The notes under the pieces: model-generated
Told to the model about the DNA's origin: nothing
Databases searched by the model: none
What the model saw: the letters and a program-made list of their open reading frames with translations, nothing else
Shown here: positions 6,608 through 64,000 of the stretch, piece after piece
Position numbering within the stretch: position 1 is the first letter of the stretch
Layout of the letters: each line of letters begins with the position of its first letter
Position numbers and translations under genes: made by a program
Origin: Cephalotus follicularis
Taxonomy: Eukaryota; Streptophyta; Magnoliopsida; Oxalidales; Cephalotaceae
Length of the DNA stretch: 64,000 bases
Direction of reading: 5' to 3'
NCBI GenBank assembly: GCA_001972305.1
Contig: BDDD01002233.1
Location: forward strand, 111,856-175,855

Positions 6608-9435
6608 CAATATTAATTAGTTTTTGAAAAAAATCCCAAAGTTACCTTCCAAAATGTATGTTTTTTTTTTTTTCAATTTGACATCTAACTTAAAAATTTT
6701 CTCAATCAAGCGTTTAACTTATCAAAAGCTTCCAATTCCTCGTCTATAGTCTACCCTTGTTAATAACTTAACGAACAATAATCAAATCAACATCTTTTTA
6801 GTTATTTTATTCAATAAATACCACATGTGTCACATGTTTCAAAGAAAAATCATAATGTTATTTCCCAATATATACAAAAGTTTTAATTTAGTGTTCAAAA
6901 TATAATTATTAAGTTATTATTAATTATTTATTATTATTTTGTTATTGTGTTGATTAAATATAATTTGTTTGTTTTTAACGTGTATTATAATTATAATTAT
7001 AATTAATTTGATATGTTGAATTATAATAAATTTTCTTTATTATACAATAAAAAAACTGATAAATCATAATTTTAAATAATAATTCAATAAAAATATTAAA
7101 TGTTCCTTTAATTTCCCTATAAAGTACATGATTGTATTGATAACGTTATCGAACACGTAAAATTATATAAACTACGATTTAATTACTCATATAAAAATAT
7201 GGAATACATGTATATTCTCTCAATTAAGTTTTTATTCATTAACTTTCTTTTTGTTATTGTGTATATTTGTGACATCCGTGTCCTTGTACGGTCTGTGTCT
7301 GTAAGCCTACGTGGCTTCTATCTGTCTGTCGGTCTGTTAATCTATTTTCTGGCATTCATGATATGCATCATGGCATTATTTAAATTTTTACGATTTTATT
7401 CTGATGGTTTTCTGCATAAGAAATGAATTTGCCTTTCCGAAAATTGAACAATGTTTTACTGAAACTGCTGCTGATTTCGGAAAATAGCCCAAGTGGTATG
7501 TCCTAAACATCCAATTTGCATGGCAGTCTCGGTATTGTATATATATGTATCTGATGCCCATGAGAGGCTTGTCTACACGTGTATGACCTTCTGTTCTGAT
7601 ACTTTGACACGACGGTGTCATTGCCACTATTTCTGCTGGACGTTCGGCCCGACGGGGCCCAGGCGTCGACCTTACTTAGTAGACCCCATGGCATCTTTAT
7701 ATATTTTCTGTTTAAACTCTGTTAATTTCTATATATATATGAAATTCTGATGATTTTGAATATGGTTTTTCTGATGTGATTTTCTGTTCTGGTTTTCTGC
7801 TGATTTCTGGAAATACCGATTTTTAAATCGGTTTTTGATTTTATATTCTGTTTAAGCTGTTTTTGATCTGTTTTATAAGTTCAGAGTTTGAACTTAAATT
7901 CTGTTTCTGAAACTTCTATTTAAGTTATTTTATACTTTTGTTTTACATTTCTGTAAAGATATTTATATGCGAGCAAAACTCTGCGGAGTCTTTTGTTCCA
8001 TCTCACTAGTCCTGTGGACTAACCCTCTCCTCTGTTTTTCTGTTTTTAGTTCTGACAGGTTAGTCTGCTGAGCTCTGTCAGCTGGAGTCTGTCTGTCTGC
8101 TGAGGTGAGACCACATAGGGCATGCTACCAGAGTCAACATATGCATAGCATCACTGCATAAGTATTTAAATTTCTGCATTTCATATGTTTTTATATAACT
8201 GTTTTAGTTTTGTTTAAAAAGGGTTGAACCCTATTCAGGTTTTAAGTTTTGCTAATACGGTTGAGGCAGAGCCCAACCCATTACTTGTTTTCTGTTTATA
8301 TTACGATCTGCTGAGGGCTGAGCCCATGTTATAAACTGTTCCTCCTTCGGGAGTGTGTTCTGCTGAGGGCTGAGCCCATTTCAAACTGTTTCCTCCTTCG
8401 GGAGTGTGATTTTTACAAACTGTGTTTTTATTTACAGGGGGCATAGTCCTATAAACGAATACTACATGCCCGATTTTTGTAAAATTTTAAGAGTTAGAAT
8501 TATTTTCAAGTTTTCAATAAACTTTTCTGTTTTCTTTCTGTTTTGAAGAAACTATATGTTTTAAAATGCTTTTCTGAATCTCTGTTCTGCTGAACCTACG
8601 AGGTGAGTCTCTGTTGGGAGGCTTGGCCTCGTAGCTGGCGCGACGAATTCCAGCGGCTCTGGGTCCGGGCGTCACAATATTGAATATAATTTATTTATTT
8701 ATTATTATTGCAGACTATACAATAAGCAATTTCTTTAAGAAAACCTCCAAGAAAAAGAGAGAGGTTTGACAGACCACTACCCGTTTATTATAAATTTAAT
8801 AAAAATACAAAAGAAAACTACATTTAATATAATTTAATACATAAATTATAAGAAATATTCTTTGTTTTACAATAAAAAAATTTGATAATCATAGTTTTCA
8901 ATATATTAAATAGTTTTTCGATTTCCCTTTAAAGCATATGATTGTGCTGAAAACGTTCTCGAGCACATAAGATTGTATAAATTATAATTTAATTAAGTAT
9001 GTAAAATTATTGAATATATGCACATTCTTCGTTATACAATTCAAAATATTAGATTAATTCAAAATATTAGATTTCTTATAATTCAAAATATCAAATTAAT
9101 TATAATTATAGTTTACGTAACCAACAAAATAACAAACTAATAATTAATTAATAAAAACTTAATTAGCATTTTTTTGGTGTTAAATCAAAACTTTTGTATA
9201 TGTTAGATGTGAAATTAAGAACTTTTGATAAATTAGATGTTTTATTGAAAAACAAAATCCAGATTGAGTACCAAATTAAAAAAAAACACTTATATTTAAG
9301 AGCAGTAACATTTGGATTTTGCCAGAACTTTTGATAAATTGGACGTTTTATTGAAGAACAAAAAATTCAGATTGGACACCAAATTAAAAAAAACACTAAT
9401 ATTTAGGAGGAGTAACATTTGGATTTTGCCACAGT
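6608..9435. mobile_element. Non-autonomous foldback/MULE-like repeat hosting a solo LTR
   Basis: The ends are imperfect inverted repeats of about 110 bp: 6615-6730 reads like the reverse complement of 9318-9433, and a second copy of that right-hand sequence lies at 9180-9310. Shared features are a poly(T) run, a CAATTTG/CAAATTG block and AACTTTTGATAAATT. Inside, about 6960-7200 and 8800-9040 form a direct repeat of roughly 200 bp on either side of the solo LTR. No transposase is seen. The superfamily is inferred from the structure alone, and no clear target duplication was found. Confidence 0.45.
7268..8676 (+). mobile_element. Solo LTR with perfect ATATT target duplication
   Basis: The sequence starts TGTGACATCC, ends GGGCGTCACA and is flanked by ATATT on both sides (7263-7267, 8677-8681). 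The length is 1409 bp and it holds no coding region. A 56-bp module ending CTCCTTCGGGAGTGTG is repeated around 8310-8410. The last 90 bp match the end of the LTR fragment at 34570-34661, and the CTTCGGGAGTGTG module recurs in reverse near 36225. The family is probably Ty3/gypsy, judged only from the termini. It is a recombination product of a once complete element. Confidence 0.85.
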
Positions 9436-15208: not shown

Positions 15209-15435
15209 CACTACAGAAAAAGGGGGCAACGGCGAGGGCACTTCCCCTTGCCATCCCCTCGCCATTGAGTCAACGGCGAGGGCATGGCGAGGGGACCACA
15301 CTCTCGCCAAATTACTCCTCGCCAACAAGTACGGCGAGGGGACGACGAGGGTAGAGTCCCCTCGCCATTTACTGCCCTCGCCACACAGAGGGCATGGCTA
15401 GGGCAACCTACCCTCGCCATGCCCTAGACTTTAAT
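15209..15435 (+). mobile_element. CACTA transposon 5' terminus
   Basis: It begins CACTACAGAAAAAGGGGGC, the classic CACTA (En/Spm) terminal repeat, immediately followed by subterminal repeats of GGCGAGGGCA/TGCCCTCGCC in both orientations (about ten copies in 220 bp). The sequence interrupts the copia gag region. No matching 3' end with the CAA duplication is found in the window. A related terminus with the same GGCGAGGGC subterminal repeats lies at 37400-37594. Confidence 0.85.
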
Positions 15436-23787: not shown

Positions 23788-23886
23788 TCCCGTTTGATTT
23801 TCCCATCTAACAAATGAGCTAAACAATTAAATTCCCTTACTCTTTTTCTCTCTTTATATTTTTTTTAGTAGTCTCTCTTTCTTGTC

Positions 23887-25299
23887 ATGGATGTTCTATT
23901 TTTCATGTATGCTCTTCCTTTTATGTATCTCTTCTTCTTGATCTTGAAGAGAGTTTGTGACAAGAGAGACCAAGAATGTTACATTCTTGACTACGAATGT
24001 TACAAGCCAACTGATGATAGGCAACTTGACACAGAGTTCTCAGGGGAGATAATAAAAAGGAATAGGAACCTTGGTCTCTATGAGTTCCAGTTCCTGTTGA
24101 AAGCCATAGTGAGCTCCGGCATTGGAGAGCAAACTTATGCACCAAGAATCATTTTCGAAGCCAGAGAAGAAAACCCAACTCTTCAAGATGGGATCTTGGA
24201 GATGGAAGAGTTCTTTTTCGATAGCATTGAAAAATTGTTAGCCAGGTCAGGCATTTCTCCAAAAGAAATTGATGTCTTAGTTGTTAATGTATCAATGCTA
24301 GCTGTGGTTCCTTCTTTATGTGCTAGAATCATAAATCACTACAAAATGAGAGAGGATGTCAAGGTTTTTAACTTGACTGGCATGGGGTGTAGTGCCAGTG
24401 TCATATCTGTTGATATTGTACGCAGCATTTTCAAGTCATATAAAAACATGTATGCATTAGTTGTGACATCAGAGTCTTTGAGTCCAAATTGGTACTCAGG
24501 GAATGATAGATCAATGATTCTTGCTAATTGTTTGTTTCGTTCTGGTGGTTGTGCCATCCTCTTGACTAACAAAAGAGCTGCAAAGCATCGTGCCATGTTC
24601 AAGTTAAAGTGCCTAATAAGGACTCATCATGGTGCTAGAGATGAGTCATACCAATGTTGCCTACAAAAAGAAGATGACCAAGGAAGGCCTGGTTTTCACC
24701 TTGACAAGAGCCTCCCTAAGGCTGCTACTCGTGCCTTAGTGGATAACCTTAAGAAAGTAGCCCCCAAGATCTTGCCCACAAGGGAGTTACTTCGATTCTC
24801 GGTTGTGTTACTTGTTAAAAAATTTAGTCGTAACTCAAATAAAGGAGGGCCTAAAGCTATGATCAATTTTAAGACTGGGGTCGATCATTTTTGCCTCCAT
24901 ACTGGAGGTAAGGCAGTGATTGATGGCATCGGTGCTAATCTTGAACTTACTGAGTATGATCTAGAGCCAGCAAGAATGACACTTCATCGATTTGGCAACA
25001 CATCTGCTAGTAGTCTATGGTATGTCTTGGGTTACATGGAGGCCAAAAAGAGACTTAACAAGGGTGATAGAGTTTTCATGATAAGTTTCGGTGCTGGCTT
25101 TAAATGTAACAGCTGTTTATGGGAAGTTGTCAGAGATTTAGGTGATGGTAATGTTTGGGAGGATTGCATTAATAGCTACCCACCAAAGTCACTGGCTAAC
25201 CCATTTATGGAGAAGTATGGTTGGATCAACAATGAAGATCCTGAGACTTTTGTGCTTCCTCCTTTGACAGGTTTAAAAGCTCCAAGTTCTTATTTTTAA
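23887..25299 (+). CDS. 3-ketoacyl-CoA synthase, KCS12/KCS19-like
   Basis: Intronless gene for a 470-residue condensing enzyme of the FAE1 type. KCS enzymes sit in the ER membrane and join malonyl-CoA to an acyl-CoA, the committing step in making very-long-chain fatty acids for waxes, cutin and suberin. One hydrophobic segment (residues 2-21) would anchor the N-terminus; this short single-helix N-terminus is typical of the KCS12/KCS19 subgroup, whereas FAE1 and CUT1 have two helices. The FAE1/CUT1 domain spans about 30-300 and the thiolase-like C-terminal domain 325-415. Catalytic Cys168 lies in NLTGMGCSAS, with His247/248 (RTHHGA), His338 (LHTGGKA), His367 and Asn371 (LHRFGNTSAS). Full length, no breaks. 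The subgroup assignment is from remembered family sequences. Confidence 0.93.
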   Translation: MDVLFFMYALPFMYLFFLILKRVCDKRDQECYILDYECYKPTDDRQLDTEFSGEIIKRNRNLGLYEFQFLLKAIVSSGIGEQTYAPRIIFEAREENPTLQDGILEMEEFFFDSIEKLLARSGISPKEIDVLVVNVSMLAVVPSLCARIINHYKMREDVKVFNLTGMGCSASVISVDIVRSIFKSYKNMYALVVTSESLSPNWYSGNDRSMILANCLFRSGGCAILLTNKRAAKHRAMFKLKCLIRTHHGARDESYQCCLQKEDDQGRPGFHLDKSLPKAATRALVDNLKKVAPKILPTRELLRFSVVLLVKKFSRNSNKGGPKAMINFKTGVDHFCLHTGGKAVIDGIGANLELTEYDLEPARMTLHRFGNTSASSLWYVLGYMEAKKRLNKGDRVFMISFGAGFKCNSCLWEVVRDLGDGNVWEDCINSYPPKSLANPFMEKYGWINNEDPETFVLPPLTGLKAPSSYF

Positions 25300-28744: not shown

Positions 28745-29297
28745 ACACACTACTAGAAAAAGAACATTTCTCGATCGCCATTTTAGCCGACCGCTTTAGT
28801 GGTTAGCAAATGTCCTCAAGTGAAATAGTGTTGCTTTCCCATCTGCAACCGCAGTATTATGGAATTACCGACCGCCTAAGCAGTCGGCAATTCCAAATTT
28901 ACTAATATTATTATTTATTTCATTTTAGCAACAACAAATTTTGTTATACCGACCGCTATGGCGGTCGGTATTTGTCATTGTTTCGAATTTATGCAGACTA
29001 CTTTTATGGTTCCTTTTACACAGTTCCTTTTTTTTTTACATCTTCATCGCTCTCTCTCTTTCATCTTCATCGCTCTCTGTCTTCAAATCTCTCTGTCGTC
29101 AACTCCAAATCGATCGCTCCAAGCTCGAAACTCCAAATCGATCGCTCCAAGCTCGAAGCTCCAAATCGACCAACTGTTTATGTCCGGTTCCTCTCGATCG
29201 CTCCAAGTTGCAAATCAACAAACGGTTGCTTCCAGATCTGATTTCAGGTACCGTTTTCACGCAGATGAATATTCTATGATGATTTGTTGTTGGGTTT

Positions 29298-32200
29298 TGT
29301 AACGCCCCAAACCCCAAGGGTTAACCCCCAAGGTTTCACGCGCTACTAACAGTATCATTCATTATCCAATATTCAACGAAAAATTAAAAACTTTTAACAA
29401 TATAATAATGCATGCAAAATAAATTCAATTAAATATCATTTACGTGGATAAACCCAATGTTATACAATATTGTTCATAAAAAGCTCTGCCACATGTCGGC
29501 AGGTCAAGAAATACAATATTCAAAAATATAAATAGGTCGGTCGTCGATTTGCTGTGGAGGAGACTCACCCGGGGCTTCAATCCTCGGCTAACTGCGAAGC
29601 TCCACCTGTACCTGACCCATTACATTAAAATGCAATGGGTTAGCGACCACTGGTCGTGTAGGAACTACCACCATGCATTTATGAATGCAAATGCAGCAAG
29701 CATATGCAATGCAAATGAGATGCAATATTGACGGCACAGTATAACACTTCATCATTTGCTACTAGCATTCAATAACAGTACAATCCATTTCGTATCATTC
29801 CTTAACAGTCATTCACAATCATTAACCGTCAGAGTAAATCCTTCATCGGCATCCCCTACTGAAGGAGGAGCAATAACGCACTCCAGACGTTAAGGCAGAG
29901 GAGCAGGGACATGAATAATCATTACATTTTAGGCAGACCGGTTCCTCGGGTTCCTCGGCTTTAGAAAGAGCAACGTACGCGCTCTAGACGTTAAAGGCAG
30001 AGGAGAGGAACACAAACATTATACAGTGTCAGTAACAGTCATTTAGTATACTATGCAATAATAATGACATTAACAGTAACAGTCAGTGTGGCTCATCTCG
30101 CTCGGTGATCCGTCGGCTCATCTCAGTTGGTGATCCGTCGGCTCATCTCGGTCGGTGATCCATTGGGCTATCTTGGTGATCCACCAGGCTCATCTCAAAG
30201 ATAGCCTTACCGGCTCATCTCGGTCGGTGATCCCGTAGGCTCATCTCGGTTGGTGATCCGATATAATACAGTATATTAACATTTCCTTGTGAGGTCTACC
30301 TTTATCATTTTATTACACTACATTGAAATTCATTATAACTTTGCACTTATTATCCCTTTTATAATCTCCTTTTTCATCACCCATTTTACTGTCCTTATCA
30401 TCATTCTCACTGCTCTTATCATTAAAATAATCCCCATTCATACTACCACGTTGCCTAACATGCACAAGCCCAAGCGCAGGAAGGGACACTGTTCGGGCGC
30501 CATCATTTCATGTACTGGACACGCACTGGTCAAGCTCGGGCACGCAGAGGAACACTAGGCGCATGGTAGCTTGGGATAATCATGCTCTGGCACCATGGCA
30601 TGCATGGAATGCATGCACTGAACTCTATTCGGCGCCATGGCATGCAGAGAAGGAGGAGCCCAACATTGCCAGAAGGGAAGCTCGGCATGGGTGAAGAGCT
30701 CTGTTGATTGATGTCGCATGCAGAGGACGCATGCGTGACAGAGGAGAGCTCACAGGCATTGTTTGGCCATGGTTGAGCATCTTGCATGCCCAAGGAGTAC
30801 GCAGAGGAGAGCGCGGCTCATACACTACATGCTCGGGCGCATGCAGAAGAGAGGTTGGTGCGTACCGGGGGAAAGCTTGTATGCAGAGGAGAGTACTTGG
30901 TATTGCATGGCGCACATGGCAGAGGAGAGCTCGACTCCTGGGCGCATGCTTGGTATGCTTGGCAGAGAACGACACATGCATGGCAGAGGACGACGCATGC
31001 ATGCTCGGATCTTGGCGCATGCTTGGTACGCTTGGCAGATGGCTCCTCAGCGCATGTCTCTACAGCACTTGGATCCTCAGCACATGGATCCTCGGCTGCA
31101 GGGTAGGGGTGCCTCCCCGGGCATTGCGGTGGAGAAAACAATGGCAGAGAACGATGGCGTCCTCAGCGCATGGTGTCCCCGGCGCCTGGCCACCTCGGGC
31201 ATGGTTCCTCTAGCGTTTTGGCACCTCGGCAGTGGAGTCTTGACACCGTGCCACCTCGGGCCTGTCAATGCATGCAGTGGTGCAAGACATCTTGGACGCA
31301 TGGCATGCAGGGTAGAGCCCAGTGCACATCAGGGAAGGGCTCTCATGGTAGAGGAGCGCCCACCTGCGTGCATGTATGGCACATGGCAGAGGACAATGGT
31401 ATCCCCCGCACTTAGTGTCCTCGGGCATTCAACACTAGTGCGTATGTCTCTTTAGCACATGGCCACCTCTGGCACATTCATGGAGAAGAGCCTGGTGCCA
31501 TACATTGCATGCTCGGCAGCACTGGCGCTCACAGAGGGCATGCTTGGGCGCACTAAGGCATGCTTGGGTGCACTAAGTTTGCACTGTGGAGAGGACGACG
31601 CACTTGACGTCGCATACTCAGAGTAAATGCGGAACAGTGATCGGCGTCTTACAAGTATGCTCCTCGGACACATGCCCGAGGAGAGCTGGGTACCATGGAA
31701 GTACGCTATTTGTTCCTCGGATGCATGCTAAGATGAGCTTGAGTGAGGCGTACTCGGCTCGCATAGGAGGCGTGCGCAAGATGCATGTGTGCTGGGGAGC
31801 TCCACACTTAACTTAGCCTTATTAGTCGAGGAACAATTATAACTTGTCAATACAGTATCCTTTTACTAATCTAATCCTTATCAATTACAGAGGTCCCCCT
31901 AAATACACTTCCTAACCTTACCGTTTCTCATTCATCTAGTACATTCAATCTAACAAATGACATAACCCGTGTATAACATTTACAATAGAACACAGCACTG
32001 AGTAGGTAGTAGAACCTACCTGGATTAGACGAGGTTGCAGCACATTATCCTTTGCTCAGCTGCTACTTCTTCAATAGCTCCTTCCTCCACTAATTCTTCT
32101 TCCTTGCTTATTCCCTGATGGCTTCTCTTGTTTCTTCACTCCCAAATCGTCAACACCCGTCTCCTTCACTCCATTCTCCTTTTTATAGGCAACCAGGGAA

Positions 32201-32604
32201 GACTCTAGAATTTGCCACACAATTCTATCAATTTCTTTACAATTTCGGGCTTGGAGACTTGAAGGTAGTCAGCCCAATATCTCCAATTTCCTTTATACCA
32301 TATTTGGCCCAATAACAACAATTCCACTTCCTTTTCTCTTAATTGGCCCAACACATTTTTAGCCCACACCATTTAATCATTTCTAGGCCTAAATGCTCAA
32401 TATAACTTTCTCTTCTTAATAATTAGCCCAAAAATATTATTTATCCATTTAGGGTCCAAAAGGCCATTTTCTTTATTAATCCAATTTCCTCAATGTCACG
32501 TAAAAAACCCGATTTTTCATTCTTTTATCCTTTAGACAATGCGGCCCAACATTCGGTCCAGTCCAACAACCATTCTTTTATATTATAAAATTCCGGGTAT
32601 TACA
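29298..32604 (+). mobile_element. 3.3 kb solo LTR with perfect GGTTT duplication
   Basis: It starts TGTAACGCCCC and ends CCGGGTATTACA; GGTTT flanks it at 29293-29297 and 32605-32609. No internal retrotransposon domain is present, so it is one long LTR left by recombination, probably Ty3/gypsy judged by the termini. It contains a 24-bp tandem with unit near GGCTCATCTCGGTCGGTGAT (30085-30265) and a GC-rich region (30580-31810) built of recurring GGCATGCAGAGGAGAGC-like modules. Long overlapping open frames in that region on both strands come from this composition. The exact duplication suggests a fairly young insertion. Confidence 0.9.
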
Positions 32605-32843
32605 GGTTTTTTGCTATGTTGTTTTTTGTTGTATTTCTTTGTTGGTCCTACAGGTTGCAACCCTGACCATGTTTACCCTAATTACTATGTACTCAACAAT
32701 CATCCCTATATCTTTGTATGTTTCAATTGAGGTACTTATCATTGCCTATTACTACCATAATCCCTTCTATTATCCCGATCCATAAGTGCACATATAAATG
32801 TCGAATAATTTGTGTCCGCGTCATTTTCTTATTGCTACTTCAG

Positions 32844-34782
32844 ATGATCAAGTTTATTAAGTCCACTCAATTTATCAACAAGGACTTACATATGTACCAC
32901 GCTGAAGCCAACACCCCTGCCTTGGCTAGGACTTCCAATCTGAATGAGGAACTTGGGTAGGTGAATTTATGCCTTATTAACTTCCTAAATGGAGGTGTAA
33001 CAAGTGTTACTTATTATTAGCACAAGTGATGTCATATCAGTATAGGAATTATATCCATTGATTTGAATGTTTCTGTTGGAGTCTCTGTTATTTTTATATA
33101 TTGGGCTTTGTCCACGTATGAGTAATTTCATATGAATTGCTGCCTTGGTCAGGTGGAATACATTTTCTCTGATAAAACTGGAACTTTAACAAGAAATCTA
33201 ATGGAGTTCTTTAAGTGTTCTATTGGAGGGGAAGTCTATGGAACTGGTATTACTGAAATTGAGAGGGGGCTTGCAGAGCGGGATGGTAAAAAAATCCAAG
33301 AGGTATAAAAGTGTATCTATCTTGCTTTTTAGTTTAGGATGTGTCATTTACATCTGCATATTGCAGTGACTAGATATTTAATGCCTCCAAATCTTTTGCA
33401 GGCTCCAAAATCAGCCAATGCAGTACATGACAAGGGTTTTAATTTTGATGATGTGAAGCTTATGCGAGGATCTTGGCGGAATGAACCTAATCCTGACACT
33501 TGCAAGGTAGCTTTTTTTTTTTTTGTGTGGAAATTGGAGGAGATATTATTTCTTGTAGTGAATATGGAAATATTATTCATTAGTAATTTTTGCTTTGACA
33601 TTTTAGATTGGGACTTCTTAGGCTTATGAAACCGATAGGATTCTTTCCTTGATAGTGAGGCATCTTATTTTTCTCTGCGGAAATGAGATGCAGTATTAAT
33701 TTTAGTGTAATGAATATGGAGTTAGTATTCTTTAGTAACTTCCTTTTGCATTTTAGTATGATGGATGTGGTTTATCTAATTTGTGGTTTCTGATGTGCAC
33801 ATTTATAATTTCAAAGGATTGACTAGTTCATTCTTTTGTTCGATGGGTATCAAAAGCCTGGTCATTTCATCAAGTTCAGTAATTAAGTTTTTGCTTGTCT
33901 ATTTATGTGGTAATCCTTTACTATTGATTTTACTTAATTGCACGCGCCGGTGACCCTCCGGCGAGAAATTTCGGACATGTTTTCGGACTCCGTTCTCTGC
34001 GGTGATGTGATCCGTTCCAGTTTCGCTGCGGGATTCTGACTCGGTGCTCCGTTTCATCAACTTTCGGTAAATTCCGAACTCTGTTCCGTTAGTTCTGTTT
34101 TTCGCTGTTTTCTGCATTTCTGTATCTGTTCTGTTGCATATGAACTTGAATTACTTATCTGACTCGAATTTGATAACTTGGACAACCACTTGGACTAGCT
34201 TTAATGATTTTGGACTAGCTTTAATGTTTTCAAACGGATGTTTAAAAAAGAGGTTTAAAAGATGTTTTTAATAATCTGATTTCTGTTTCTGTCGATCGGA
34301 TAGGTCGATATGGTTTTCTGACATCTGCACGTATTTCATTGCATTAACGTATTGCACGCCATTGTGCATGTTTGAGTCTGATAGTCTGTTGTCTGTCTGA
34401 GTTCTAATTGTCTGTTATCTGTCTGTTGGTAGAGGATCCTACCGTTGAGGTCGGCCATGGAGGCGACCAGTCGAGGGACTCGCTCGTCTGTACTGTGAGT
34501 GGAACGTCTTTCTTTAACCCTTTTATCTTAAGTACTTTTAACGTTTTGAATGTATTTTCTGAATCTATGTTCTGCTGAACCTACGAGGTGAGTCTCTGAT
34601 GGGAGACTTGGCCTCGTAGCGGGCACGACAGATTCCAACGGGGCTGGGTCCGGGCGTCACAATATGTCATACAGTACTCCCCAAAGGTGATGAATCCCCA
34701 GAAAAAGTCACTTACCAAGCTGCATCCCCTGATGAGGCTGCTTTGGTTACTGCTGTAAAGAACTTTGGATTCTTCTTCTACA
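32844..34782 (+). pseudogene. Captured P4-type ATPase (flippase, ALA3-like) exons
   Basis: Four exon-shaped pieces with native splice borders: 32844-32960 ([17 protein letters not shown]), 33153-33302 ([19 protein letters not shown]), 33402-33506 ([19 protein letters not shown]) and 34662-34782 ([19 protein letters not shown]). These are consecutive parts of a plant aminophospholipid flippase, closest in memory to ALA3, including the phosphorylated Asp in DKTGT (codon 33171). Transmembrane segments and the C-terminal two-thirds are missing, and the CAG closing the first piece has become TAG. Introns are kept, so this is DNA-level capture, not a retrocopy. It lies inside the CACTA ends and cannot encode a pump. 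Confidence 0.88.
33926..34661 (+). mobile_element. LTR fragment inside the captured ATPase gene
   Basis: It ends GGGTCCGGGCGTCACA at 34661, and the last 90 bp match the end of the solo LTR at 7268-8676 with several differences. Its left boundary is uncertain. It sits directly against the fourth ATPase exon piece, interrupting the coding block. No coding parts are present; broken. Confidence 0.6.
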
Positions 34783-34784
34783 TG

Positions 34785-34985
34785 TTTTCATTCTTGATTT
34801 TATTGAACAATTTCCTGTCAAATAGATTTCATAGGGGTGAGAAAACTCAGTCTTGACACCATCGGCGTATGATCCTTTGCCTTCAATTGTCTCAGTAGAC
34901 AGAACAATTGCTGAGGAATAAGCCATGTCATTGATTTTTTTGGAGTTGAGGTTGGAGCTTCTGTTAAACTTCATAGTGAACTTGA
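34785..34985 (-). other. Unidentified coding-like fragment, opposite strand
   Basis: A minus-strand frame reads MKFNRSSNLNSKKINDMAYS and later [19 protein letters not shown]. Composition looks like protein-coding DNA, but I do not recognise the family. It lies directly behind the last ATPase exon piece and within the CACTA ends, so it may be a second captured gene fragment. It could equally be chance. Confidence 0.35.
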
Positions 34986-35349
34986 TTTATCAAATTGTGA
35001 TCCATAAACTTGACACTGAAGTGTTTGGGAATTTAAGTGTTTATGATATGTCATGTTGTTTCTGGTTTTTTTAGTACTGTTTTTTTTTTGGTATGTTCGC
35101 TACATAATTCTTTCGCTTGCTGTTGACTTAGTGACATTAAATGGCTGAATGAAAAATGATCCTAGTTTCATTATATTTGATATACGGTTAACAAATTTTT
35201 GCTATATCATTCAATTGAACTTGCCTTGATATATTTTAAGTACCAATTTTTTTTCGGACCGTTTTTGTGCTTTTAGCTACCGATTAAGCGGTTGCAAGGC
35301 CTAAATTAGTCATGTTCTTTTATTTTTTACACTAATTTAGCAACGGTTT

Positions 35350-36040
35350 TTATAGTGGTAATGTAATTCAATTACCAAAATTTTTTTTATTTTCCGACCG
35401 CTTTTATTATTTTAGCGACCGCTTAAACGGTTGCTTGAAAGAAAATTATCCACGAGTTTTCTAATTATTTACTAATTTAGTAACAGTTTTTTTTTTGCTT
35501 TACGGGTAATTTAATTTTTAAAATTTTTTTCTCTCTCGACCGCCACAACAATTCCCGACCGCTATAGCGGTCGGCAAACAACTCATAAAACTAATCAAAT
35601 TTCCCCGACCGCTTTTCAAAATGCCAGACCGCCATTAGCAGTCGGGAAACCTTTATAAAATAAATTTAATTTCAAAAAATTCTTTTATTTCCCGACCGCT
35701 TTTCAAACATTACCGACCGCCGGAGAGGTCGGGAAACCCTTATAAAATTAATTTTATTTCAAAAATTAATTTTATTTCCAGACCGCTTACAACATTCCCT
35801 GACCGCCGGAGCGGTCGGGAAACCCTTCTAAAATTAATTTTCTGACACCGATCAACAGCAACCGCTTCCCTTCCTGACCGTTTTAACGGTCAGTAAATGA
35901 TAAAAGCAGTCGAGCTATAATCGGCGACCCAATTATAAGCGACGGTCATTGCGGTCGGCGCGGCGGTCCGAGAATCCTTTAGCCGACCGCTTTTAAGGTT
36001 TTTCCGACCGCTTTGGCGGTCGGGAAATGTTCTTTTTCTA
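35350..36040. repeat. CACTA subterminal repeat array
   Basis: More than a dozen CCGACCGC / GCGGTCGG motifs in alternating orientation, spaced about 20-45 bp, with AAATTAATTTTATTTC spacers repeated between several of them. The left end has fewer copies (28775-28970). Such arrays bind the transposase in En/Spm elements; here that is inferred from position. Confidence 0.8.
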
Positions 36041-36049
36041 GTAGTGACA

Positions 36050-37128
36050 TGCACTATTAGTGAGTGCATTAGTGGCACTCACTGATAACCATCATGTTTA
36101 AACTGGTGCCTCTCAATCTCTTATTCTCTCTCTCTCTAGCTTTCACTCTCTCTTCGGTCTCTCTTTGATCTCCTTATCCGTTTATCGGACTATACCCCCT
36201 GTAAAGAAAAACACATTTATATATAACCACACTCCCGAAGGCGAAACCAACAGTTTATAAAGGGCCCAGTCCTCAACAACCACAATCTAAACCAGAAACA
36301 TACTATTCTAAATACGGATATAATCATTTAAATGTCTCAATAGGTGAACATATTCTCATCATTTACATCAACACACATATCTAACTTACGCACTTCCCCT
36401 CGCCGGCAAGTCATATAATGTTCTAAAGCAATTCTTATATAATATATGTTCATTTACATTGACTACCTTTATATAAGGATAGGTCGGATGAGATAAAATC
36501 CTTACTCTGCGATTAACCTGGCTGGCCACTACTACCCCTTACCTAGATCTAAATCTAATCCATTACATTACAATGCAATGGGTCAGCAGCCTATGGCTAT
36601 GTACAATATACATATGCAGTGAAATGTGCAGAGTGAACATATATATCCAATATAAATTATGCATGCATAATATAAAGGATGCGAGCAATGTCACTTATCC
36701 ATTTCAATTCATTCGGTCGGTCACTTATCCGTTTCGGTTCATTCGGTCAGTCACTTAACCATTTCGGGTCATTCAAAGCCCTCATTGTCACTTTACTTGA
36801 AGTCTCACATAGGACTTCGGATGGTCTGCCTTCTTGAGGTCAGCCTCCCTAGCAAGCCTACACTACTTGGCGACCTTAGAAACGGCCTACCATGTAGCCT
36901 TAGGTGTTAGCCTGACCAGAGAATCCTTTAAGGATAGCAACCCAAGCAAAAAAATCGAATGTTTAATAAGAAACAAGGCATTTGGGTGTCGACAACATCC
37001 TCTAGGCGTCGACGTCATCACTGTAGGCATCAACTCGCGTTAACGTGTTCGCGCTAAGCTTCATCATATACTATGTTTAGGCGTCGACGCACTGAGCACA
37101 CATTCAGGGTGTGCATCAACGCGTTGAC

Positions 37129-37219: not shown

Positions 37220-37594
37220 TAGAAATCAATACCTAGAATCGAAGCTTGCGATCTGGTATGAGAGAGATAGCAGCGCGGAGGAGAGAGAAAGTTCGGCGGC
37301 GGTGAGAGTAGGTTAGAGAGAGAAAACGGCGTTTGAGAGAGAGCGGTGGGAGGAGAGAATGAAAAAATGAGAGAGAGGAAGAAAAAAACGTAAGTGTCGG
37401 GTATGTAGGGTTAGGGAGTGGAACGGGCATGGCGAGGGCAATAAGTGCCCTCGCCGTGTATTGAAAAATAGCGAGGGCAGTAGTGCCCTCGCCATGCCTT
37501 TTTAAATAAAAAAATAAAAAAAATTGGCTCAACGGAGAAGGGATTCATGTGCCATCGCCATAAGCCCTCATCGTTGCCTATTTTTCCAGTAGTG
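37220..37594 (+). mobile_element. CACTA transposon 3' terminus (GGCGAGGGC type)
   Basis: The sequence ends CCTATTTTTCCAGTAGTG, a CACTA terminal repeat in 3' orientation, preceded by GGCGAGGGCA/TGCCCTCGCC subterminal repeats as at 15209-15435. The terminal repeats of the two differ (CACTACTGGAAAAAT here, CACTACAGAAAAAGG there), and flanking triplets differ (TTC after this one, CAA before the other), so they are relatives and not the two ends of one element. Confidence 0.75.
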
Positions 37595-41188: not shown

Positions 41189-42699
41189 TTAAATCGTTTT
41201 AGCAGGTGTCTTCAGACAAACAAGCCAGTGTTCAATCAACCTTACAATATCATAGTATGATTGTAGATACTTCTTCAATTCAGAGTTCAAACTTTCACTC
41301 AATTGGGTAGTAGTCAATCCAGCAGAAAAAGTCATATTCACATATACTTTGGCCCATTTCTTTCTTAGCTCAAATATACCTTGCAACCAAGAATTATCTC
41401 GAACATTATACTTATCAAGCATAGCATCCCAAGCATTAAAAAACTCATCTTCCTCTTCCCAATATTCAAAAAATGGTTGCAAATCACTTTTAAAGTTGCT
41501 TTCACATCTCATAAGATGATTAATATTTTTCATTGCATTTTGCATCATGTGCCACTTGCATAATCTATGGTATGTTTCTGGCATCATCAACGATATATCT
41601 TTTGCCATAGCTGGATCTTGTTCAGTGAAGATAGTCTTTGGTTTCTTCCCTGACATTGCCTCAAAAAAAGTTTCAAACAACCACCGAAAAGACTCCGCAG
41701 TTACATCATATAAAAAGTGCAGCTCCAAACAACACACTTTCTCGATACCGATTAAATCCAACAAACATTGCAAGCGGGCGGTACTCCTTGTTCGTTCTAT
41801 ATGTAGTATCAAAGGAAACCACATCACCAAACAACTTATAGTTAATGATCATTTGTGCATGTACCCAAAAAATATATCAGCATCCAATTGCACTGCATAG
41901 TAGAAGGAAGCATTTGATTTTCTTTGCTGTTAAAAGTATTTTAATAAACTCCCTGCTTCACCATATTTCAGCCTACGTTGCCTCTTTCTATTAAGGTAAT
42001 TCTTCGGGTCTTGTTTAATATAACCAAGGCTCCCTACCACCAGCTTGTCCGCTCATGAATTCCTATGCATATGTCAATTTTATCCCACTGGCATCTGCCA
42101 CATCAATTTGCAAAGCTTGAGTTCTCAGGATTTCTCGTTGTGATGGCAACATGTAACAACATGGTGCGATATGCATAGGGTGATTATGCTCAAGATCAAG
42201 GTTTTGTACATAATATTTTTTTCTTCTCCCTATAAAGTTTAATCGTCAAATGTGCAGGACAAGCCGTGTTCGGAATGAGCTTCTAGATTTATATTCAAAA
42301 AAAAAAAAAAAACCAGTTCTTGTTTCTGCTCGATCGGACTTTTTTCCAATAGGTTCACGTGATGATCGAAAACCCTCTTTGCAAAATGTAAATTTTCTCC
42401 AAATCAATACACCATCTGCCTTACTTTTATTAAAACCTTCCCTACAAACACTAAATCCAGAATCTTTTACAAACTTGTTATAGAAATCATATGCCTCTTT
42501 TTCAGAATCAAACTCAAGACCGAGTTTCGAAACATCATAAGCAACCATATTTTTATCATTGTCTTTATACTGCTCATTCATGAATGTATCGTCTGTTTTC
42601 ACGTGTGATGATTGATTATAATTGAAGCTTTATTTTATTTTTAATTTAAAAAAAAAAAAAGGAGAAGAGAGTATAACCTGATACATTAAGATCTTCCAT
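41189..42699 (-). pseudogene. FAR1-related (FRS/FHY3-like) pseudogene
   Basis: On the minus strand a likely start at 42699 (MEDLNVS, then a donor CAG/GTTATAC) is followed by the FAR1 DNA-binding domain at 42550-42330 (GLEFDSEKEAYDFYNKFVKD, CREGFNKSKADG) and the MULE transposase domain at 41730-41220 (YDVTAESFRWLFETFFEAMS, then YHRLCKWHMMQNAMKNI, then TTTQLSESLNSELKKYL). FAR1 family proteins are transcription factors derived from Mutator-type transposases. The frame changes between 42300 and 41750, and the C-terminal SWIM zinc finger is absent, replaced by unrelated residues before a stop at 41189. It is a broken relative, either a decayed host gene or a MULE transposase; no terminal repeats were found. 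Confidence 0.82.
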
Positions 42700-59250: not shown

Positions 59251-60165
59251 CTAGTAAGCAAGATACACAGTAATCTGCAGCAGAGTCTCAACCCCATCAG
59301 TCTCATGCTGGTTAGTGTCTGGAAAGGTCTTAAGGGTAGCATAGCCCTTAGCATTGGCATACTTTCCGGTGCCTCCCATGACTGCAACTTGTGATTCGGA
59401 AACAGCAGTCTTATGGACACCAAAGAAGCTGATGCTATCGGCATAGCCACCACTCTCAAACATAGCTGTGAAAGCCATAGTCTGGCCATTTCCATCTATA
59501 GAACTCACTACGTAAAACCCCTGTGCCTTACCAACATGACCAGAACCTAACTCATGTCCTTCGGTTAGTTCATCATCAATGACTGTCATTGTCCCAAACA
59601 TGAGCTCTTGAAGGAGAGCTCCTTGAGGGACTTGACCTCCATTCATGATTGGAACCCCAAACCCGCCATTGTTATTGTTATTTCCGTTGTTTTGGATGGT
59701 ATTACCTGCGTTTCCACCGAGGCCAGAAAGGAAAGGAATGTTGTTATTGTTAACAATTCCATTGTTGTTGTTGTTGAGGGGAATACCATTGTTAATTGGA
59801 AGGTTAGCACCATTAGGCTTCGCAAATGGGAGTTGACCATTGACTGCTGGATTGGCAACAATTCCAGTAACCGCGACAGCGGAGGGGTTTGATCCACCAA
59901 GTATGTCGTGCATGAAGAAAATCAGGTCATGAAGAGGGTCTGCATTGGCAGCTGCAGCACTGGTGGCTGCTGCTGGTGCAGTAATCACAGGAGGAACACC
60001 GGCAAGGGGTGATACATCTATGTTAGGTGCCACTGGTGCAGTGGATGGAACTTCTGTTTCTTCATCGAGGATTCTAGCTGAGGTGGTGCAAGTGGTTTTT
60101 AGAGCTAAAAGTAGTATTGAAATTATGGCTTTGATTGGAACTGTGAGGGATTTATGAGTTGCCAT
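59251..60165 (-). CDS. Dirigent protein, ESB1-type (DIR-e subgroup)
   Basis: Intronless gene for a 304-residue secreted protein. Residues 1-30 are a signal peptide ending TTCTTSA. A proline/alanine-rich stretch (39-76) precedes the first part of the dirigent domain (DPLHDLIFFMHDILGGSNPS, 77-96). The domain is then interrupted by an Asn/Gly-rich low-complexity insert (about 105-178, with runs of five Asn) and resumes at 180-304 (LLQELMFGTMTVIDDELTEG, GFYVVSSIDGNG, VMGGTGKYANAKGYATL). This split layout is typical of the ESB1/DIR10, DIR9, DIR18 and DIR24 group, which act in the apoplast; ESB1 is needed for ordered lignin in the Casparian strip. The start is the first ATG behind a TATA box. No breaks. 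Confidence 0.92.
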   Translation of the reverse strand: MATHKSLTVPIKAIISILLLALKTTCTTSARILDEETEVPSTAPVAPNIDVSPLAGVPPVITAPAAATSAAAANADPLHDLIFFMHDILGGSNPSAVAVTGIVANPAVNGQLPFAKPNGANLPINNGIPLNNNNNGIVNNNNIPFLSGLGGNAGNTIQNNGNNNNNGGFGVPIMNGGQVPQGALLQELMFGTMTVIDDELTEGHELGSGHVGKAQGFYVVSSIDGNGQTMAFTAMFESGGYADSISFFGVHKTAVSESQVAVMGGTGKYANAKGYATLKTFPDTNQHETDGVETLLQITVYLAY

Positions 60166-60262
60166 GAGTTTAGGAAGATTTTAAGAAGCTTTGAAGGTAT
60201 TAAATGATTGTGAGTGGGCTTTCTTTTGGTGAAGCGATGATGAAATAAGGTAGTGTGTCTAT

Positions 60263-61228: not shown

Positions 61229-62632
61229 TCAACGGGCTGATATAAGTTCACTTAGAAGCTGACATCTACCTTCATCTTCACCACAGATGTCCCTGACTAG
61301 AGCTTCCCAAGCATTTATATCAAATGTCATTTTTCTCTTTCCCATCTCCTCCAAAACAAAGCAAGCACCATCTATATTACCGCACTTCAACAGCCCCACA
61401 GCCAAACAAATTAATTTTTCTGATTGTGGGCAATGCCTTCTTGTCAACATTGCAGTGAAAACCTTCAGGCCTCCATCAAAATCCCGGACCTGGCAAAACC
61501 CATCAACCATCATCCGGTATGTGGCTGCATTCGGATCACAACCTTTAACCTGCATTTCAATCAAAACTTTATAAGCCTCTGCTGCTCTACCCTCCTTGCA
61601 CATGAAATTTATCAATATATTATAGATAACAACATCTGGCTGAAACCGCCTGTTCTTCATCTCAAGAAGCAAAGATTTTGCCTCCTCAATCTTCCCCCTC
61701 TTCCCAAGATCACTCATCAACACACCAAAATTCACAAGCCGCGGTTTACACCCTCGATATGCCATATCAAACATCAACTTTTCAGCTTCCTTATACTCGT
61801 CATTCAGGCACAAACCCTTCATCAACAATGCATATGTCACTGCATTCGGGTACTTCCCCTTCTGCATCATGTCCTCCAGCAATTCCTTAGCTTTCTCCAC
61901 CTCACCCTTTCTGCACTTGAACCCTATTAGACTGTTATAAGTCACAACACTTGGTTGAACTTTTTTCTCAAGCATTTCATCAAACACCTTACACGCTTCT
62001 TCAAAATCCCCCTTCTGAAGCCACCCCTTGATCATTATATTAAACGAAACCGAATTTCGACGAAAGCCCATTTTGTAAGCCTGATCAAACATCTCCTTTG
62101 AATCAACTAACCTATTATTATCAACTAGAACATTAAGAATCGCATTAAAAGACTGTATTGTACGGACACAATCAAAAGACTTGTTCATTGTACGGAATAT
62201 TTCCATGGCCTTATCAACCAAATGGGCTTTTCCATAATGTTGAATCAAAGCAATGAAAAGGGTCTCTCTACATGTAACATTATAATCTCTAATATAACCA
62301 AGAACAGTCTCAACAGCAACAAAATCACGACAATGGGCAAGCTTGTATATGAGAGCAGAATATGAAGGATAGTCATGTTTATATCCCATTCGGTGATACT
62401 CGTGAAAGAGAGATAAAGCCTCATCTGGGTTATGTATCTCTTTGATATTGGAGATGAATGGTATCGGTTTCTGTGGTTTTGGTGTCGGTTTCATAGCATT
62501 TCCATTTCTGGGTTTGGTTTTGGGTCTTCTAGGACCAGGAGTGTGATACTGCTCAAAGAGGTTGTGATTGATGTAATGGAGATATTGAGCTGATTGTGTT
62601 TGATTGATTGCTTTTAATTGTGAAAGGATCAT
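61229..62632 (-). CDS. P-class PPR protein, At1g07740-like
   Basis: Intronless gene for a 467-residue pentatricopeptide repeat protein. Such proteins bind organelle RNA through tandem 35-residue helical repeats and act in processing or stability. The N-terminus (residues 1-60, basic, rich in Pro and Lys with few acids) fits a mitochondrial presequence. From about residue 75 to 440 roughly ten PPR motifs follow, e.g. SVSFNIMIKGWLQKGDFEEA, SVVTYNSLIGFKCRKGEVEK, DVVIYNILINFMCKEGRAAE, NAATYRMMVDGFCQVRDFDG. There is no E, DYW or LAGLIDADG tail. Order and sequence agree well with my memory of Arabidopsis At1g07740, whose RNA target I do not know. No breaks; stop directly after SELISAR. Confidence 0.93.
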   Translation of the reverse strand: MILSQLKAINQTQSAQYLHYINHNLFEQYHTPGPRRPKTKPRNGNAMKPTPKPQKPIPFISNIKEIHNPDEALSLFHEYHRMGYKHDYPSYSALIYKLAHCRDFVAVETVLGYIRDYNVTCRETLFIALIQHYGKAHLVDKAMEIFRTMNKSFDCVRTIQSFNAILNVLVDNNRLVDSKEMFDQAYKMGFRRNSVSFNIMIKGWLQKGDFEEACKVFDEMLEKKVQPSVVTYNSLIGFKCRKGEVEKAKELLEDMMQKGKYPNAVTYALLMKGLCLNDEYKEAEKLMFDMAYRGCKPRLVNFGVLMSDLGKRGKIEEAKSLLLEMKNRRFQPDVVIYNILINFMCKEGRAAEAYKVLIEMQVKGCDPNAATYRMMVDGFCQVRDFDGGLKVFTAMLTRRHCPQSEKLICLAVGLLKCGNIDGACFVLEEMGKRKMTFDINAWEALVRDICGEDEGRCQLLSELISAR

Positions 62633-63330
62633 GGTAGCTTAAAGAGAATTAATTTCTTTACACTTTGTTTGGATCCCGTGATTTTGAGAGAGAAACTGGG
62701 AGGAAGTGTTTCTAAAATTTCCCTCCTCCTGTAGGTTTAAACGGAAATAACGAGAAATTGATTGTTTGGTTGGGAGGTTAATGAGACGAATCTTACATTC
62801 ACATCAAATTTAATGAGATAAAAAATATCCTTTCAATTATTTTACATTCATGTAAGCAAATTAATATTTGTCTTAAGCATTCTATTCAACTATCGTATTA
62901 ATTTTTATCTAAGTTATTAAATTACATTCATATAAGTCAATTAATATTTATCTAACGTAGAGCCTTTAATTTGCATGGCAAAATTGTTGTTTTCATTTGA
63001 GTTAATTTTGAAATTTTGTTACTCCTATATGACATTAGTATAGATATTTTACAAAATCGCATGCATTACACGAGCTTATAATTAGTATTTAATAATTGAA
63101 ATACATATATATCCATAAAATATTAAATTTAGCTGTTGAAATTACAAAACGTAAAATACAGGCTTTAAAATTATGATGATACAACTTGTATTTTATGATA
63201 ACAATACTCACTCTTTCATATATATAGGTAAAATAAGAAAGGCCTCATGGGCTTGGGAAATGTGCTGATGCAAGTAACAGGCACGCACGCCTTATCATGG
63301 GCCATTGAAGCTGACAACTGGGCTTATTAT
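62633..63330. other. Intergenic, PPR promoter side and P450 3' side
   Basis: AT-rich. Contains the upstream region of the PPR gene and the 3' untranslated region of the P450 gene. Direct repeats of TTACATTCATATAAG-like text occur at 62844 and 62930. No gene is recognised. Confidence 0.45.
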
Positions 63331-64000
63331 TTATTCTTTGACCAAAGATTTAACTGGGCCAAAGCGAGCCGTAGGAACACATATAAGATCATTGGCCCTT
63401 GGAGCTGTCAATCCGGGCCTTTCAGTCATGTCGACGACACAAGCACGGCCGTTCATTTCCTTCCCGACCGATGTAACCACCTTCCAATCAAAACACTGAA
63501 TTAAAGATGCCAGCACCGCAGGCAGCTCTTGCAAGGCCAAAGAAATTCCAGGGCATCCCCTCCTCCCAGTACCAAAGGGCAGAAGTTGAAAATGTTGGCC
63601 TTTAACATCTACAAGGCCCAATGGATCTCCGTGATCGAAACTTAAGAATCTCTCGGGCATAAAGTCCAGTGGGTTTTTCCAAATCTCGGGGTCCCTTCCA
63701 ATAGCCCACATGTTCACAAATAGCAATGTTTGTGATGGTATGACATATTTGTCAATGTTACATTTTTCTGTTGATTTTCTTGCAATCATAGGGATTGGTG
63801 GGTGAAGCCGAAATGTTTCCTTGATGATGGCTTGAATGTAGGGTAGATTTGGACAATCTGATTCATTCACTAACCTACTATTTCCAATAACATTCTCAAT
63901 CTCCTCTCTTGCTTTATTAAACACATTTGGATGGTTGATGAGCTCTGCTAGTGCCCATTCAAGCGTAATTGCCGTTGTGTCTGTAGCAGCAGTGAAGAAA
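63331..64000 (-). CDS. Cytochrome P450, CYP93-like, C-terminal part (runs off window)
   Basis: The last 223 or so residues of a plant P450; the 5' part lies beyond 64000. From the edge: the I-helix oxygen-binding motif ([15 protein letters not shown]), ExxR in the K-helix ([13 protein letters not shown]), PERF (DFMPERFL), and the heme-binding loop [11 protein letters not shown] with its Cys ligand, closing with [14 protein letters not shown] and a stop at 63331. P450s of this kind are ER-membrane mono-oxygenases. The I-helix text and the [17 protein letters not shown] region resemble CYP93 enzymes (flavone or isoflavone hydroxylation in several lineages). The family is fairly likely, the substrate unknown. 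No break in the visible part. Confidence 0.9.

Follow-up and report, generated by a model that had tools for sequence, protein, structure and literature searches.

A CACTA-type transposon, probably of the Pack-CACTA kind, with an unspliced piece of an ALA3-like P4-ATPase gene inside it in Cephalotus follicularis

Within the 64,000-nucleotide (64-kb) stretch of Cephalotus follicularis DNA that we analysed, hereafter the window, positions 28748-36046 (7,299 bases) form one CACTA-type insertion, as judged by its ends and its target duplication. The reading that we favour, at a probability of roughly 0.87, is that a non-autonomous Pack-CACTA element captured an unspliced fragment of an ALA3-like P4-ATPase (flippase) gene, inserted here as one unit, and was later hit by LTR elements and decayed. 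The gene-capturing transposon would have taken in the fragment in its genomic form, presumably as a copy of a parent gene elsewhere, and would have depended for its movement on a transposase acting in trans; its insertion at this site as a single unit would have produced the ACA duplication. Two relatives of LTR retrotransposons probably landed in the element afterwards, although one of them, now a 723-bp solo-LTR-like segment, possibly arrived before the capture. The other would account for a solo-LTR-like insert of 3.3 kb, while at the 723-bp segment exon 5 would have lost its start through recombination between LTRs or through a deletion. A stop codon at the end of exon 2 would also have arisen, and the flippase piece would now be a passenger without flippase protein function. 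The features of the element are collected in Table 1.

Table 1. Features of the CACTA-type element, in window coordinates
Feature	Position	Strand	Remarks
Left terminal inverted repeat	28748..28780	+	preceded by ACA; 23/23 and 31/33 against the right end
Left subterminal CCGACCGC/GCGGTCGG repeats	28787..28968	+	motifs at 28787, 28868, 28949 and 28961
CT-rich stretch, 5' leader-like	28990..29297	+	putative role; read from sequence
Nested LTR-like insert, 3,307 bp, TG...CA	29298..32604	.	GGTTT duplication, 5 bp
Flippase exon 1	32654..32731	+	AG before, GT after; presumed ALA3 residues 340-369; limits read from sequence
Flippase exon 2	32844..32960	+	TAG at its end (32958-32960)
Flippase exon 3, with DKTGT phosphorylation motif	33153..33302	+	
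Flippase exon 4	33402..33506	+	
LTR-like segment, 723 bp, TG...CA	33939..34661	.	no 5-bp target duplication
Flippase exon 5, without acceptor and first codons	34662..34781	+	
Stretch without recognised family	34826..35060	.	a 79-aa open frame overlaps it on the minus strand
Right subterminal array, CCGACCGC/GCGGTCGG-type repeats, tandem units of 87 bp among them	35247..36031	+	
Right terminal inverted repeat	36014..36046	-	then ACA

At 28748 and 36046 the element has inverted termini that both carry CACTACTAGAAAAAGAACATTTC, in keeping with the terminal inverted repeats of CACTA elements, and they are identical over 23 of 23 bases and agree at 31 of 33 overall. A preliminary description of this DNA had reported both ends with an 18-bp repeat; the ends are real, and the repeat is longer than it stated. 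The next best opposite-strand match to the left 33-mer anywhere in the 64-kb window reaches 21/33, and a search of the window with the terminal 23-mer gave no third end at fewer than seven mismatches, leaving two ends only, in inverted orientation. ACA stands on both flanks, which confirms the 3-bp target site duplication noted earlier and typical of CACTA elements; the chance of matching 3-bp flanks, computed from base composition, is about 2%, and a 3-bp duplication taken alone is weak evidence. The subterminal arrays of the preliminary description are borne out as well. All 15 exact 8-mers in the 64-kb window, comprising ten occurrences of CCGACCGC and five of GCGGTCGG, fall within the two subterminal zones of the element (motif ranges 28787-28968 and 35394-36023), giving it subterminal repeats at both ends, as is usual in CACTA elements.

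The CT-rich stretch that follows the left repeats holds tandem repeats at 29039-29169, and CAG/GTACCG near 29248 may be a splice donor. A blastn comparison of the element with the 64-kb window (1e-3) gave no second copy, and the joined flanks, used as a query, gave no empty copy of the site; Rfam families gave nothing in the window. The terminal 22-mer has no exact match in viral contigs, where plant DNA is not expected, and the terminal sequence has no occurrence in the literature among the matches listed.

Between these ends, the translated exons, joined into 188 residues with the stop codon omitted, match the P4-ATPase model TIGR01652 at 2.3e-61. The match covers model positions 299-490 of 1058, some 18% of the model, in the region of the phosphorylation site. 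Solved P4-ATPases also match the joined exons (best 1.3e-37), and these 188 residues have no Pfam match up to an E-value of 10. The TIGR01652 score, 207.7 bits, lies below the curated cut-off of 431.25 bits that a whole protein would be expected to reach, and the P4-ATPase piece is, from its sequence, a fragment and not a flippase. A presumed Arabidopsis ALA3 protein sequence, used as a yardstick only, gave four tblastn alignments in the 64 kb, spanning 32648-34763; together they cover the five exon pieces, which follow one another in order and share one orientation. No other flippase exons were detected in the 64 kb, every further match to the presumed sequence having an E-value of at least 3.7. 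The name "ALA3-like", the order of the exons and the absence of exons outside the element all depend on this presumed sequence. Exon 1 encodes 26 residues.

AG and GT borders are present at exons 1-4 and the introns are retained, and the piece is accordingly genomic and unspliced, in five exon parts. The preliminary description had spoken of four consecutive exons with introns kept and with the DKTGT motif; the exons, introns and motif are all there, while the pieces number five, the last of them without its start. Its title had also called them "spliced pieces", which has to be corrected, as the introns are present.

The flippase piece is damaged in several places. If the donor of exon 2 is placed at 32961, the exon ends in an in-frame TAG (32958-32960) at a position occupied by glutamine in the solved relative aligned with it (ATPase IC, three chains listed), and a stop appears to replace this Q of the relative at the exon's end. 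An alternative donor GT at 32957, four bases earlier, avoids the TAG but shifts the frame. The AG nearest before the chosen acceptor of exon 3 is at 33121-33122, with an in-frame TAA after it. In the alignment with the presumed ALA3, the end of intron 2 reads LGQ in frame. The start of exon 5 is missing, seen as a four-residue query gap before ICHT relative to the solved relative; the presumed ALA3 has seven residues at this gap. The captured piece cannot make a flippase, and a transcript of it, if there is one, could be no more than a non-coding or chimeric RNA.

The two LTR-like segments together account for 4,030 of the 7,299 bases of the element (55%), a content that the preliminary description did not mention. 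The larger insert, at 29298-32604, sits between the left part of the CACTA element and flippase exon 1, and runs from TGTAACGCC to GGTATTACA with GGTTT on either side, thus having both the TG...CA ends and the 5-bp duplication of a solo LTR. No direct terminal repeats were found in it, either among the best 20 of 56 repeat families or by blastn against the window (1e-3), and the three of its 25 stop-free pieces (at least 55 aa) that were scanned gave no Pfam match. The 723-bp segment, at 33939-34661, comes after exon 4 and before what is left of exon 5, in place of that exon's start, and its flanks differ (TTAAT versus ATATG), so that the 5-bp duplication of a solo LTR is absent. Beyond its TG...CA ends, the sole support for calling it a solo LTR is that a repeat-family end recurs at 8570-8680 in the same window, a stretch 91% identical to 34555-34665 over 111 bases. 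This match stops four bases past GGGCGTCACA in both copies, and we therefore read that point as the end of the repeat family. The first four bases of the exon 5 piece, ATAT, are present in the repeat copy as well (8677-8680), and this common ATAT could be due to chance or could be part of the repeat. The naming of the segments as LTRs thus rests on their ends, on a single duplication and on the one end shared with the copy at 8570-8680; in the pieces scanned, no protein of an LTR retrotransposon turned up. Missing exon 5 bases beside an LTR-like segment without a duplication would fit unequal LTR recombination or a deletion; the solo LTRs that unequal recombination yields may have target duplications or lack them, according to a passage of PMC7251063.

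Gene capture is well supported because the flippase fragment lies between one left and one right end that have a target duplication in common, and because no other exon is found in the 64 kb (at E below 3.7). With a gene fragment lying between terminal repeats, Pack-CACTA, the type proposed in the preliminary description, appears to be the right class, and the sequence supports this assignment well. The preliminary description had itself named the finding that would overturn it, namely that the flippase exons are the remains of a resident gene bracketed by two unrelated CACTA insertions. The position of the fragment between the ends would suit such an arrangement, and ACA on both flanks would then be a coincidence of about 2%, but two complete insertions should have left four ends, whereas only two are seen at fewer than seven mismatches in 23, inverted and with matching ACA, and the presumed ALA3 finds no other flippase exon in the 64 kb below an E-value of 3.7. 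We consider this explanation scarcely credible and have rejected two independent insertions for these two ends.

It is conceivable, although unlikely, that one or both of the LTR-like segments, together with the exon 2 stop, predate the capture and arose in a flippase pseudogene. The 723-bp segment would lend itself to this, as it lies inside flippase sequence and has no 5-bp duplication, at a point where gene bases are missing; for these same reasons its order relative to the capture cannot be placed. The 3.3-kb insert argues the other way, since it stands between the left part of the CACTA element and exon 1 and has kept its GGTTT duplication intact, as would be expected of a later hit, though this is not proof of one. 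Capture followed by LTR-like hits and decay is the order that we favour. As to how the fragment was taken up, capture by neighbouring (tandem) insertions is neither supported nor excluded by the sequence; no internal subterminal motifs were found around the captured part, though tandem-insertion capture might leave some.

The preliminary description had found no CACTA transposase, and no transposase family was matched in 27 of the 32 stop-free pieces (at least 40 aa) of the non-LTR part scanned with Pfam; this negative is weak, as Pfam also gave no P-type ATPase match for the flippase-exon pieces. The same scan returned five weak matches with E-values from 0.016 to 0.16, all below the curated cut-offs, and the left part of the element gave no Pfam match in its five stop-free pieces. 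The gene-capture reading does not account for the stretch at 34826-35060. The minus-strand frame over it has a sub-threshold Pfam match to GATA-N (0.016) and matched no solved structure up to an E-value of 1.

The preliminary description had gone on to suggest that antisense or hairpin transcripts could silence the parental flippase gene. RNA folding was computed for two stretches, 32840-33506 and 35530-36046. The former, which is exon region, folds much as its shuffled versions do (z -1.07, 2 of 20 shuffles as good), while the latter, at the right end of the CACTA element, folds strongly (z -9.38, 0 of 100 shuffles as good). The strong folding is at the right end and not in the exons, and a hairpin RNA would therefore carry CACTA-end sequence; it would be without flippase sequence unless one long transcript joined both. 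No inverted copy of the flippase exons was found among the best (longest) 25 of 37 inverted pairs, nor by blastn against the window, and a hairpin of the flippase exons was rejected on this ground and on that of the exon folding.

It therefore seems very improbable to us that the element is transcribed and that antisense or hairpin RNA from its flippase exons silences the parental gene, even though its right end is able to form a strong hairpin and captured fragments are reported to do this elsewhere: in maize, captured sequences in Helitrons, Pack-MULEs and Sireviruses have been described as sources of siRNAs against donor genes, in a passage that does not name CACTA elements (PMC13317346). 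By this analogy silencing would be possible in kind, yet it is unsupported by the anatomy of the element, in which the above searches gave no inverted exon copy and the exon region folds much like shuffled sequence. Fainter still is the prospect that transcription from the left end yields one transcript with the unspliced exons and the hairpin-forming right end, and that this transcript feeds small RNAs tuning the parental flippase gene.

Among known systems, Tgm-Express1 of the soybean wp allele is a close precedent (PMC1947982). This CACTA element, 5.7 kb long, has taken in exonic and intronic parts of five host genes. It is located in the second intron of a gene for flower colour, and splicing of the exons it carries into chimeric RNAs has been shown. 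Like the present element it belongs to the CACTA superfamily and carries host exons and introns unspliced. Unlike it, the present element has one recognised gene in place of five and no recognised host gene around it, and is broken by LTR-like DNA.

Pack-CACTA and other Pack-TYPE elements have been systematically described, together with a model of capture by neighbouring insertions, in PMC8903248. The Arabidopsis and maize Pack-CACTA elements treated there are, like ours, non-autonomous and CACTA-ended, with coding DNA between the repeats; they were called from clusters, with singletons removed, and compared with known genes, in contrast to the single element in a 64-kb window considered here. 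CACTA elements of Chenopodium also have host gene fragments inside them, but these come from other genes and, in the cases related in a portion of PMC8978399, precede the coding domains that belong to the elements themselves, whereas no CACTA coding domain was found in the present element. Judged by title, no earlier report of a CACTA-captured flippase was found in the literature.

The earlier observation is thus real and was correctly spotted, is over-interpreted as to function, and is ordinary for plant genomes. Gene capture by such elements is already well known in plants, and knowledge of CACTA elements is unchanged by this one. It adds a P4-ATPase to the captured genes and offers a clean example of capture followed by layered decay, in the succession of capture, insertion, LTR-like hits and a nonsense codon. 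Annotators should be warned that a DKTGT-bearing gene model at this position would be spurious.

Intron 4 of the flippase piece contains a diverged tandem duplication (33515-33606 and 33665-33756, 73%). Inside it, with no subterminal motif nearby, is a 12-mer at 33549-33560 that differs from the CACTA terminus by one mismatch and may be the remnant of an internal CACTA end.

Two more CACTA-like ends were found in the window, with GCGAGGGC/GCCCTCGC motifs adjoining them, and they are of a family other than that of the flippase-bearing CACTA element at 28748-36046. A comparison of the three-base flanks at 15209 and 37594 gave no agreement (CAA versus TTC), and because these flanks differ, the two ends probably represent two distinct elements.

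Features in the window
Feature	Position	Strand	Detail
CACTA-like end	15209-15381		CACTACAGAAAAAGGGGGC at 15209
CACTA-like end	37432-37594		CACTACTGGAAAAATAGGC, terminating at 37594
MULE transposase domain and FAR1 DNA-binding domain	41192-42629	minus	6.2e-14 (MULE), 7.9e-09 (FAR1)
Long open frames (n = 3)	59254-60180, 61232-62638, 63334-63999	minus	

A short way beyond the right end of the flippase-bearing element lies a repeat copy (36175-36287) that pairs in inverted orientation with 8351-8461 at 80%, which suggests an LTR-like right flank. The window also holds a 295 bp inverted repeat with 97% identity (1-295 and 2399-2693). Within the element, 34826-35060 is possibly another captured fragment, the second in the element; a 79-aa open frame on the minus strand overlaps this segment.

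To the left of the element there is a 475-codon open frame (23872-25296), in which an FAE1/3-ketoacyl-CoA synthase domain was found (6.6e-118). Near the window's right edge, the three long frames, judged by eye, look like dirigent-type, PPR-type and cytochrome P450 proteins.
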